DNA of 64,000 nt from Heligmosomoides polygyrus polygyrus. Taxonomy: Eukaryota; Nematoda; Chromadorea; Rhabditida; Heligmosomidae. The position numbers and the translations under genes are program-made. Below, in pieces: positions 12,246-63,960 of this stretch (positions are counted from its first letter, which is position 1; each line of letters starts with the position of its first letter). The stretch spans positions 8,541,298 to 8,605,297 of the forward strand of contig OX377203.1 of NCBI GenBank assembly GCA_947396885.1, given 5' to 3'. A model generated the notes under the pieces. That model was not told where the DNA came from. It saw only the letters and a program-made list of their open reading frames with translations, and searched no databases.

Positions 12246-15200
12246 CTAGCACCCTTGAGAGCCGTTCTTCCTAAAAAAAAACGATTAAGCTGTGCGCCGA
12301 TTATCAAAGCAATGCCATAGAATTACCTGTAGAGACAAAGAAGATTAATATGCCCATGGGATCCAAGTGGAACATATCCGTATCTTACCCCATAACAACC
12401 GTAGGTCGTTGCACCTAACTTTTTTGCGGTTTTCATAATCTGCAATTGGAAGCAATTTTCGATTGTCATGCATTTCTATAGAAAATTTTCGATGTATTGA
12501 TAATATCACATACATCATCCTTTGGCATTTTCTTGAATTCTTCTCGCAATTCCTCTTCACCAAAACCATAGTCATCCGTACAACTGAAGCAGGCGATTTA
12601 TGGGAACACAGATGCACAGAAATAGGCATTTAAACAACAATGATCAACGGTCATGTTGGAACCGTAGACAAGATTCCGGCACAATTTAATTTAATTTAAT
12701 GTAATTTAATTTATTACATGAACATGTCATGCAGAACTTATAATAGGTCAACAAAACAAACCCGGGTACAAACGAAAACGAATGACAAACACTGACCTCA
12801 TGAGCATAATTATCTAGGATCTATCGAATAACTTCAATTCTTATTAATAATAACAATTGTGATCAACTAGGATTCAGATGACAGTCCAACACTTTCAACA
12901 AACTCTTGAAATCAACAGTACACAAAGCTGTTAACCAGGAAACTGTCTCAGCCGTATGTTTGAATGGCGAACATGAATACCACTACGAGCATTTCTACTC
13001 TTGAAATAGTAGGAAGGTATGTTTCATTTTTGCAAAGTCCTTAAACCTAAGGAGTTGGGGCCTCTAAAATGCCAGTATTGAGTTGTACTGTCAGCATGCA
13101 CCTAATACGTTTGTGCACGCTCTTCGTTAAGATTAAGGATGGTGGTGAAAGATACCGGGCAAGCAGCTCGGTGGCTCAGTAGGAAGTATCGGTTAATCAA
13201 AGGCACATGGTAACGTGTTCGATCATGTGCCTTGCCGTGCCTGAGACAGTTCCCTGGTTAGTTTAATAAGCTTCGGCCCAGCCCCAATTGCGCAAAACTG
13301 GTGCCGAAACCCAGTTCTGGCTTTTGGTAGCGGAACCTTGCGGCGAATAACTCGGATGAATGAACTGCTGCCCACTACAAAATGATCCAGTATGACTCTG
13401 TACTGACCGTATAGAATTTTGAGCAACATTGCATAATCAAATTGTTTCCTCGGAACTTTCCAGCCCTATGTTAGCATTCCGATTGTTGATAGAGGGAATG
13501 AGATGTTGGAGCAAACCAATAGAACGCAGAAAAACTTTTCTAGTAAAATTATTCTTAACTGATTCAACCTTCTTAACCTATTGGCGATCCCGTGTCTGGT
13601 GCGTGGGACGCGCACTCAGACCGCACAGACGCTGGAATCTCGCGGAAGCACTACTTCACGATATTCCAAATGAATCTCCCTCCCAAGGGTTAGCCACATA
13701 TTGGAGAAGGCCGGAACAGTTGTGAAGCAAACCATAGAAGATGTATTTGCTACTGTCAGCAAAGAAAAAAACGTCCGTTTTCCACGAATCTTGCAAATAA
13801 GGTGACCACATGATGTAGCAGGTGTTTTACATATTTTTGTCTATTTTCTTTTCCGTTATTTTCTGCATGATCAATTTTATGAGATGTGAGTAGCTGTTTG
13901 TGAATAGTGCCAATCTTTGTGCAGCTTGATTAGTGTGTGGTGCTGATTATTTGACTTTCAGTGCTTAGAAGAAAATGACTGCCGGACCACAGTGCAGTAG
14001 CATTGCTAGGATCCAACATATCTAATGATTACTTGCAAACCAAGAAAAAAGCGAGAAAGGGGTACCAGCGGACAGTTTTATAACCGCGGTCCGAAATCAG
14101 CTCGCGCGGTCGTCAATGGGTTAATCGATTTTTTTGTGCGTTTTAAACACTACAGAACTATATTCGAGCATTGATCCGACATATGCTTTATAAGTCCGCT
14201 CTAAAGCGTTGGGATCGTTAGTAGAAAGAGCTCCAATCAGGTTGGAAACGCTTCTAAAGAGTTATGAACTATAGACTTGCACTGCTTATCAAAGGTAAGG
14301 TTGCTGTTAACTAAAAAGCCAAGGTCCCAAAAAAAGTCTACTTGCTTGATCCTACTCTAATTAACTGTATAACCAGCCTCTTGCTGCCTGGGCCAATTCA
14401 CAACAGCTTAGCTTAGTGTACAATGTGGCCTCTTCGTTTTGACCAAGCCCACTTGTCTTCAGTCCGAATCATGCCTTTTGTATGCATAAGCAAAACTAGA
14501 ACACATATCCATGCAGCGCAGGAGCCTCCTTTCTCTGATCTTTACTTCTAGCCTGTCCAACACGGATTTTTTGCGAAAATCGGCAACACCCTTACTTCAA
14601 CAAGTGGTTCGTTTCTCACAATTGTTAAGCATATAACACTTTGCACGCCAATAGGAGCTTATGTTACGCTGTGCAACCTAATAGAGGTAAAAACTTACGT
14701 CAGTCTTGAATACCTGCAGAATTCCGTTGAGTTGACGTAATGAGGCGGGAAACTAGGAACCATCACCTCAAACGTTGCAGCAGATTCAGCTACATCAACT
14801 ATATCGCAGTCCAAGGTCTGTAATCTTAATATGTTTTAACTCGCTATGGTTGAACAGGATAGTAAAGTACAACGAAACGTTTTTGTTTTTCCATTCTTTG
14901 TAGGACCATAGCACTGAATCTGGTCTCGCCTGTTTTCATAGCTTTATAGATTTCCGTTTTTTATCATCTACCGTCATCTGCTCCTCTATATTTCCACGCT
15001 TTTTGGCACTTTATGGCGCCCTTGTTGTAGTGTTCGAAATAAATATAAACAAATATAATTTTTATTGTAATCCATATATAACTAAATGCTAAACAGCGAA
15101 TTACCTAAAGTGTAGATCTGAACCACTGATGTGATATATATGACGGAATCGCCTCCCTCCATAGAGTAACGAAATGGAAGTATCCGACCCGAGTACAAAC

Positions 15201-63800: not shown

Positions 63801-63960
63801 ACGACATGCACATCTGGTCGACCAAAGATATAAATACCATCCTGTCGCATTGCTGTATTCAATTCAACAATACATGAATTACTCACCAAATTCAAGCCTT
63901 TGTGATAGTCGATTATGTAGTAATCTTGCCAATCTCCTGATGTATGCTTTTCACAATTAA
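54891..63960 (-). CDS. Gene 4: secreted six-cysteine protein, exons 3-7 (5' end outside the window)
   Basis: Coding exons on the minus strand: 63887-63960, 59686-59801, 55144-55213, 54972-55081, 54891-54915. Phases and lengths (74, 116, 70, 110, 25) match gene 3 (74, 116, 70, 107, 25). The acceptor of the first visible exon (TTTTGTTTTCAG) is at 63961-63972, so the two signal-peptide exons must lie within a few hundred bases beyond 64000. Motifs: NCEKHTSGDWQDYYIIDYH, then KGLNL, TYDCNIVGVAAVAAQKEL, DKYCKFSRRT, FHRRSFYQPQLLALLNMM, LAPTTYGCSAMR, TLICLYLKNGKTCS. Six cysteines at conserved places. No frame break in any exon. Exon 5 is almost the same as that of gene 3, pointing to a fairly recent duplication or gene conversion. 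Introns 3 (4.1 kb) and 4 (4.5 kb) hold repeats. Confidence 0.87.
56287..56299. repeat. Poly-G run of 13
   Basis: Uninterrupted G run in intron 4 of gene 4. It is G-quadruplex prone with the nearby GGGGG tracts at 56304, 56316 and 56327. Confidence 0.9.
57303..57372 (+). repeat. tRNA-like repeat head (SINE-like)
   Basis: GCGGTGGCGCAGGGGTAGTG resembles an A box and TGGTTCGACCCT a B box, with 35-40 bases between. The ends GCGGT... and ...GGCTGTC can partly pair. Upstream 57083-57180 matches the flank of the inverted copy at 58474-58543 (tttcgatt, ccatggaacttc, ggccattag), so this is a dispersed repeat and not a tRNA gene. Confidence 0.55.
57692..57862. repeat. (GT)n microsatellite
   Basis: About 90 bp of pure GT followed by about 80 bp with scattered GGTG and ATG interruptions. 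Confidence 0.97.
58474..58543 (-). repeat. tRNA-like repeat head, inverted copy
   Basis: The minus strand reads GGCGGTGGCGCAGGGGTAGC, then GTAGTTCGACTCCCTATGGC and TGCC. The 5' and 3' ends pair over about six bases like an acceptor stem, and the A and B boxes are clear. A shared flank with the 57.3-kb copy argues for a SINE. Confidence 0.55.
60135..60208 (-). repeat. tRNA-like sequence, Asp-like, possibly a pseudo-tRNA
   Basis: 74 nt. Acceptor ends GCGCCGG and CTGGCGC pair with one G-T. The T arm GCGGGTTCGAGTCCCGC is perfect. The middle (TTCCCGCCCGGTCAGAGGG) resembles the anticodon arm of tRNA-Asp but with an insertion, so the loop is not of normal length, and the D stem is weak. I call it tRNA-derived. 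A hAT-like element is inserted 26 bp upstream of its 5' end. Confidence 0.5.
60235..61711. mobile_element. hAT-like non-autonomous element, 1477 bp
   Basis: Ends CAGGGATGAGCGG and CCGCTCATCCCTG are inverted repeats starting with the CAGGG typical of hAT. The flanks ATCCACAC (60227-60234) and ATTCACAC (61712-61719) form an 8-bp target duplication with one difference. Subterminal regions carry many GGATAACGGATAACGG units in opposite orientations. No transposase is recognised inside. It sits in intron 3 of gene 4. Confidence 0.85.
62331..62960. repeat. Duplicated 140-bp module flanking the minisatellite start
   Basis: GAAGCCAAAAGATGCCTACG, GTATGCCAGCCGGG, CATCGTCCAAGTTTACGAGA and ATTCAACGGG occur from 62331 and again from 62817 (offset 486 bp), each followed by the minisatellite. 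Confidence 0.85.
62462..63510. repeat. Minisatellite, about 42-bp unit, with higher-order repeats
   Basis: The unit is approximately AGACGTCGTCTAACGTGCGT then AGGGATTCAAAAGACGTGCT and GA. There are about 25 units, with variants GAGTCAAGATTCAGAAGACC and CTGCGCTAGACGTCG. A multi-unit block from 62994 is repeated from 63190 with an offset of 196 bp. The array ends about 380 bp from exon 3 of gene 4, inside its intron 3. Confidence 0.92.

Follow-up and report, generated by a model that had tools for sequence, protein, structure and literature searches.

NSP-4-like genes of Heligmosomoides polygyrus and their likely shortened CAP fold

Heligmosomoides is a model of immune modulation by gut worms, and part of what it secretes is catalogued as 'novel', with no function assigned. 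NSP-4-like proteins (NSP, Novel Secreted Protein) are reported in larval secretions as homologues of the adult secreted NSP-4, 6, 10, 12, 18 and 44 (passages of PMC3744408), and a study of H. bakeri describes ASP and NSP genes as having haplotypes that are shared and highly divergent, although its passages leave unstated which NSPs are meant (PMC10682056). Two other groups invite comparison: the CAP (SCP/TAPS) proteins of the ASP/VAL type (e.g. Oo-ASP-1, Ac-ASP-7 and Hp-VAL-4) and the hookworm ASP-related proteins (ASPRs), a cryptic family only distantly similar to ASPs (passages of PMC6497320). Here, we describe four genes, A to D, in a stretch of 64,000 nucleotides of Heligmosomoides polygyrus polygyrus (assembly GCA_947396885.1, contig OX377203.1, positions 8,541,298 to 8,605,297, forward strand), referred to below as the window. 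We think it quite probable that these genes are NSP-4-like and that their products are secreted into the host gut, where they would use a shortened CAP fold, lacking the metal site usual in CAP proteins, to bind lipids or receptors of the host.

Kinship with NSP-4 and gene structure

The four genes lie at 12246-20805 (A, minus strand), 29010-35095 (B, plus strand), 40408-46201 (C, minus strand) and 54891-63960 (D, minus strand) and form one gene family within the window. A search of a protein collection with a profile of the four encoded proteins returned two matches, NSP-4 of H. p. bakeri (E 7.5e-38) and P0001, a protein of 154 residues that is 66% identical to B and probably derives from a transcript, because its single open frame sits on contigs no longer than 1,475 bases, whereas gene B spans 6 kb. 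Further search rounds brought in 17 hypothetical proteins of Nippostrongylus brasiliensis (Q1695_002934 to _015996), with gene numbers in runs. NSP-4 is 35-39% identical to the four window proteins and has six cysteines in common with them, and its gene, located in the same genome and on the same scaffold (C27:11579918-11581184), encodes a product identical to H. bakeri NSP-4 at 152 of 155 residues and has the exon plan of the window genes, with seven exons and phases 0-1-0-2-0-2. It is a separate paralogue, however, and compact at 1.3 kb, whereas introns of the window genes reach 5.7 kb. Judged by similarity and exon plan together, the window genes are members of an NSP-4-like family. A preliminary description of this DNA had left the identity open (ASPR- or SCVP-like strongylid secreted proteins, or unnamed); its placement among strongylid secreted families stands, the identity is now narrowed to NSP-4-like, and the predicted fold discussed below favours its ASP-related guess.

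The exons were located by a three-frame comparison of the four regions on the reported strand, with borders then set from the DNA, and are as follows.

A exon 1: 20791..20805, minus strand, ATG and start of the leader
A exon 2: 20694..20736, minus strand, remainder of the leader
A exon 3: 20501..20571, minus strand, HC...EEYHKDMGM, profile match
A exon 4: 14699..14817, minus strand, TLDC...FCRYSRL, profile match
A exon 5: 12514..12583, minus strand
A exon 6: 12327..12439, minus strand, TTYGC...LLCLY, profile match
A exon 7: 12246..12270, minus strand, stop, with AATAAA 42 bases 3' of the stop
B exon 1: 29010..29024, plus strand, ATG
B exon 2: 29084..29132, plus strand, leader
B exon 3: 29267..29337, plus strand, NC...EEYHKGMNL, profile match
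B exon 4: 34260..34378, plus strand, TFDC...YCRYSRQ, profile match
B exon 5: 34730..34799, plus strand
B exon 6: 34885..35006, plus strand, TTYGC...LLCLY, profile match
B exon 7: 35068..35095, plus strand, stop
C exon 1: 46184..46201, minus strand, ATG
C exon 2: 46065..46110, minus strand, leader
C exon 3: 45923..45996, minus strand, NC...DYHKGLNL
C exon 4: 43238..43353, minus strand, TLDC...YCKFTRL, profile match
C exon 5: 40654..40723, minus strand, GC donor
C exon 6: 40490..40596, minus strand, TTYGC...LLCLY, profile match
C exon 7: 40408..40432, minus strand, stop
D exon 3: 63887..63960, minus strand
D exon 4: 59686..59801, minus strand, TYDC...YCKFSRR, profile match
D exon 5: 55144..55213, minus strand
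D exon 6: 54972..55081, minus strand, TTYGC...LICLY, profile match
D exon 7: 54891..54915, minus strand, stop, with AATAAA 32 bases 3' of the stop

Genes A, B and C are complete, with seven coding exons, the first of them tiny (15-18 bases), and encode 151, 157 and 151 residues, respectively. Positions 12246 and 63960 are exact exon ends, and the four exon sets with open joined frames, already recognised in the preliminary description, are borne out by exact borders throughout. Gene D, which had been seen to run off the window, has five exons inside it; exons 1 and 2 lie just past the edge, at the window equivalents of 64147-64164 (C27:8605444-8605461) and 64028-64073 (C27:8605325-8605370), making D a complete gene of the same plan. 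The 22 introns in the window comprise 21 of the GT-AG type and a single GC-AG intron (intron 5 of gene C), the GC donor of which is also found in a copy of gene C outside the window (C', see below). Alignment column and phase are identical for five of the six introns in A, B and C and for all four introns of D within the window; the equality of splice phases at every junction, as initially claimed, is thus qualified by the first intron, which falls one codon later in C. The YHK, TTYGC and LCLY motifs and six cysteines align across the genes in the register described earlier, and A and B carry one additional cysteine each. The leaders of A, B and C are hydrophobic and that of D reads alike, and it is from these leaders that the signal peptides assigned to the three complete genes are judged. 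Tiny exons within kilobase introns can hide an entire secreted family from open-frame scans.

To these models we add a profile hidden Markov model (HMM) built from the 19 database proteins, none of which comes from the window and all of which were found via similarity to window proteins. In the window it gave ten matches (13.1-33.1 bits), all on family exons (exons 4 and 6 of A to D, and exon 3 of A and B); the best score in 20 dinucleotide shuffles was 11.4 bits, a value that nothing else in the window exceeds. Exon 3 of C and of D scored at noise level (5.6 and 7.3 bits), their support being the mutual similarity of the two genes. Searches of the four window proteins against Pfam and of the window against Rfam gave no match for the gene family.

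In a tree of the family, P0001 groups with B and its outside copy B' (100/99), A with A' (96/94) and C with C' and D (100/100), and the N. brasiliensis proteins fall together (100/100). The position of NSP-4 within the first of these groups is weakly supported and its branch is long; the midpoint root in an earlier tree was a drawing aid only. Should P0001 come from a different species, the lines leading to A, B and C/D would predate the species split. The 17 N. brasiliensis proteins resemble the window proteins in matching the family profile and in their cysteines, N-L-T/S site and clustered gene numbers, and differ in that some are shorter or lack the cysteines of the C-terminal end. Because they form a clade of their own, expansion of the family was at least partly separate in N. 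brasiliensis.

The strongest competing identification is that the genes represent a Heligmosomoides branch of the hookworm ASPRs and not a separate family, which we regard as a serious possibility, somewhat less probable than its contrary. The likeness is by description: ASPRs are secreted, cysteine-rich and apart from Pfam CAP, and account for 35 of the 198 proteins secreted by adult N. americanus (passages of PMC7274458), and the window family follows the same pattern of a cryptic group with possible distant ASP kinship. For this last trait the fold model agrees, and sequence comparison reaches only E 0.15-0.22 to Ac-ASP-7. The ASPRs of A. ceylanicum were defined as a convergent psi-BLAST set at 1e-9, and the SCVPs likewise at 1e-6 (passages of PMC6497320). 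Against an ASPR branch stands the finding that no hookworm protein is among the protein-search matches, in a search whose reach is limited by a word filter.

Predicted fold and proposed function

The mature chain has about 130 residues. Six cysteines are conserved (in 20-23 rows each, of 21-23) and likely form three disulfides, and an N-L-T/S site, predicted to carry an N-glycan, is in register in 21 of the 23 members, being absent in A and shifted in NSP-4; intron 3 falls inside this site. The hydrophobic leader, together with mass spectrometry published for NSP-4-type proteins from the secretions of H. bakeri, points to secretion, which is documented for NSP-4-type proteins and predicted for the four window proteins. 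A shortened CAP (ASP-like) fold is likely on the strength of structure prediction, since the AlphaFold model of a database relative, based on an alignment of 18 of the 19 database proteins (P0016 omitted), has the CAP fold.

Several results weigh against this fold and the function built on it. The model is that of a database relative and not of the window proteins, and AlphaFold run on a single relative sequence produced a useless model (predicted local distance difference test score of 36.3). The Pfam CAP profile (PF00188) is matched by none of the four window proteins and none of the 19 relatives, with a best score of 15.8 bits against a cut-off of 21.1; the profile search suggested in the preliminary description thus came out negative for CAP. 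The HNxxR, G[EQ]N, CAP1 and CAP2 signature patterns are each found in none of the 23 members. Foldseek alone gave no match below E 0.001 (best 0.045), its top five rows being CAP proteins, and the sequence similarity to Ac-ASP-7 is non-significant, with unrelated chains scoring equal or better. A sequence search of the PDB found nothing with the four-protein profile and, with P0018 alone, one unrelated chain (E 1.3). The binding function, finally, is proposed by analogy only.

The His-Glu-Glu-His metal tetrad is not conserved either: one His is invariant (22 of 22), the best Glu occurs in 15 of 22, and the next-best candidate His occurs in 16 of 22, with Leu in the other six rows, which are the NSP-4 clade. 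The family differs from the ASP/VAL proteins named above in its short mature chain, in having no Pfam CAP match and in lacking the four signature patterns and a conserved tetrad. The alternative of a family unrelated to CAP, the structural match of which would reflect a common alpha-beta arrangement, we consider unlikely. Among the papers listed in literature searches on ASPR/SCVP, on NSP proteins and on wider terms, none states a CAP fold for NSP-4 in its title or the opening of its abstract, which is not proof of absence.

In the mechanism that we propose, the worm would secrete a diverse panel of binding proteins that are small, stable and without enzymatic activity. Each member would either sequester a hydrophobic ligand or block a receptor of the host, as reported for the larger ASP/VAL proteins, and under immune pressure from the host the diversity of the panel would be maintained by gene duplication and rapid protein change. 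According to passages of a review (PMC6193718), most VAL sequences of plant and animal parasites are without the tetrad histidines, Hp-VAL-4, which is without them, still restores sterol export, Bm-VAL-1 binds palmitate and Na-ASP-2 binds CD79A. We treat the metal tetrad as an optional feature in helminth VALs.

CAP proteins have reproductive roles in other animals. By extension, the window proteins could serve reproduction or moulting inside the worm rather than act on the host. This we hold to be slightly less likely still than a family outside CAP, as NSP-4-type proteins are reported in both larval and adult secretions (passages of PMC3744408).

Copy number and constraint

The preliminary description spoke of a family of four members, which holds for the window only. 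A profile scan of 164 kb (C27:8491298-8655297) found copies A', B' and C' upstream, three further copies downstream and, at 8494195, an isolated exon 3, and the array comprises at least ten copies in this stretch. The A'-B'-C' block has the same order and orientation as A-B-C and lies about 48 kb away; the two blocks align in 36 collinear pieces (overlaps kept) over 22.7 kb, with a mean identity of 82.6%. Counted exon by exon, the genome matches listed number at least 25 for NSP-4, 15 for C, 40 for A and 35 for P0001, and all of those listed fall on the window's scaffold, at several places between 1.37 and 19.0 Mb, save for a weak one (E 0.009) on another contig. The TTYGC DNA motif by itself was discarded as a genome-wide marker, giving 215 matches versus 289 for a reversed control.

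Between the A-B-C and A'-B'-C' blocks there are no insertions or deletions (indels) in 1,382 aligned exon bases versus 17.5 expected (P 2.6e-8), the non-exon block alignment having 247 in 19,535 bases; C' ends one codon after C, outside the aligned exon bases counted. The mismatch rate between the blocks is 0.109 in exons versus 0.130 in non-exon DNA. Because exon indels are absent and exon mismatches are barely rarer than elsewhere, the frame is strictly kept while amino acids change fast, a pattern that fits functional genes under shifting pressure.

The ratio of non-synonymous to synonymous substitution rates (dN/dS), which had been proposed as a check, gives a divided answer: it is far below 1 for C/D (0.17, bootstrap 0.08-0.30) and C/C' (0.37, 0.19-0.77), below 1 for A/A' with an upper limit near 1 (0.46, 0.26-0.99), and about 1 for B/B' (1.04, 0.51-2.40). 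By dN/dS the B pair alone is indistinguishable from neutrality, and strong amino-acid constraint is not demonstrated by the recent pairs B/B' and A/A', which tells against the functional reading. Undefined bootstrap values were dropped (14 of 500 for C/D, none in the other three pairs); in an earlier run they had been set to 0 (19 of 300 for C/D, 46 of 300 for A/B). Values between the A/B and C/D lines were not used, as synonymous sites are saturated. DNA identity between C and D is confined to three stretches, namely exon 3, exon 4, and exons 5-7 with two short introns, the long introns being unmatched. The functional constraint that the preliminary description drew from preserved frames and splice sites is supported by the C/D ratio and by the missing exon indels.

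Exon 5 is always 70 bases long in A to D and in the NSP-4 gene, yet between the A/B and C/D lines it has diverged far more than have exons 4 and 6: C and D share 18 of its 23 residues and A and B share seven, and three to six are identical between the two lines, whereas exon 6 keeps 13-17 of 34-37 residues between them. A surface segment that evolves fast or has been exchanged is one possible reading.

That most of the copies are duplicates decaying amid transposon-rich DNA, and are intact through recency and not use, would agree with the B/B' ratio, the upper limit for A/A', an exon divergence only slightly under that of non-exon DNA and the many repeats within introns, but we judge it very improbable in view of the excluded exon indels, the low C/D ratio although the long introns of this pair no longer match, the retention of all splice sites across seven gene models, and neutral simulations along a single branch (1,000 each for A, B and C), in which only 23-38% stayed stop-free.

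For the NSP-4-like family as a whole, we lean towards the view that a cryptic CAP family, stripped down to about 130 residues with three disulfides and without the metal tetrad, is among the 'novel secreted proteins' of Heligmosomoides. Such a family would have expanded on one chromosome, as the array of at least ten genes and further loci, and separately in Nippostrongylus; its coding DNA would change nearly as fast as the surroundings, with both frame and fold retained, and it would form a reservoir of variable host-binding proteins. Strict exclusion of indels combined with rapid amino-acid change would suit genes facing host immunity. If true, part of a group with 'no known relatives' would be tied to a known host-modulating protein family, and assigning the NSP-4 group to the CAP fold would provide concrete ligands and receptors to test.

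Elements in and around the introns

A 348-residue open frame matching Mos1-type mariner transposase (PF01359, PF17906) lies at 41243-42289 (minus strand) within intron 4 of gene C, and further mariner-like pieces are found at gene B, within its intron 3 (near 29829-30413) and downstream of it (near 35733-35798). In gene D, exons 3 and 4 are separated by an intron that holds a tRNA-Thr (anticodon GGT; 60133-60209, minus strand), called by two programs and representing a gene, a pseudogene or a tRNA-derived repeat, as well as a tandem array of related units with periods of 35-196 bases (62463-63510). A long GT microsatellite (57695-57867) lies in the next intron of this gene, between exons 4 and 5. 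A dispersed repeat is present in three copies of 90-94% identity, at 1725-2062, 44860-45196 and 53851-54192.
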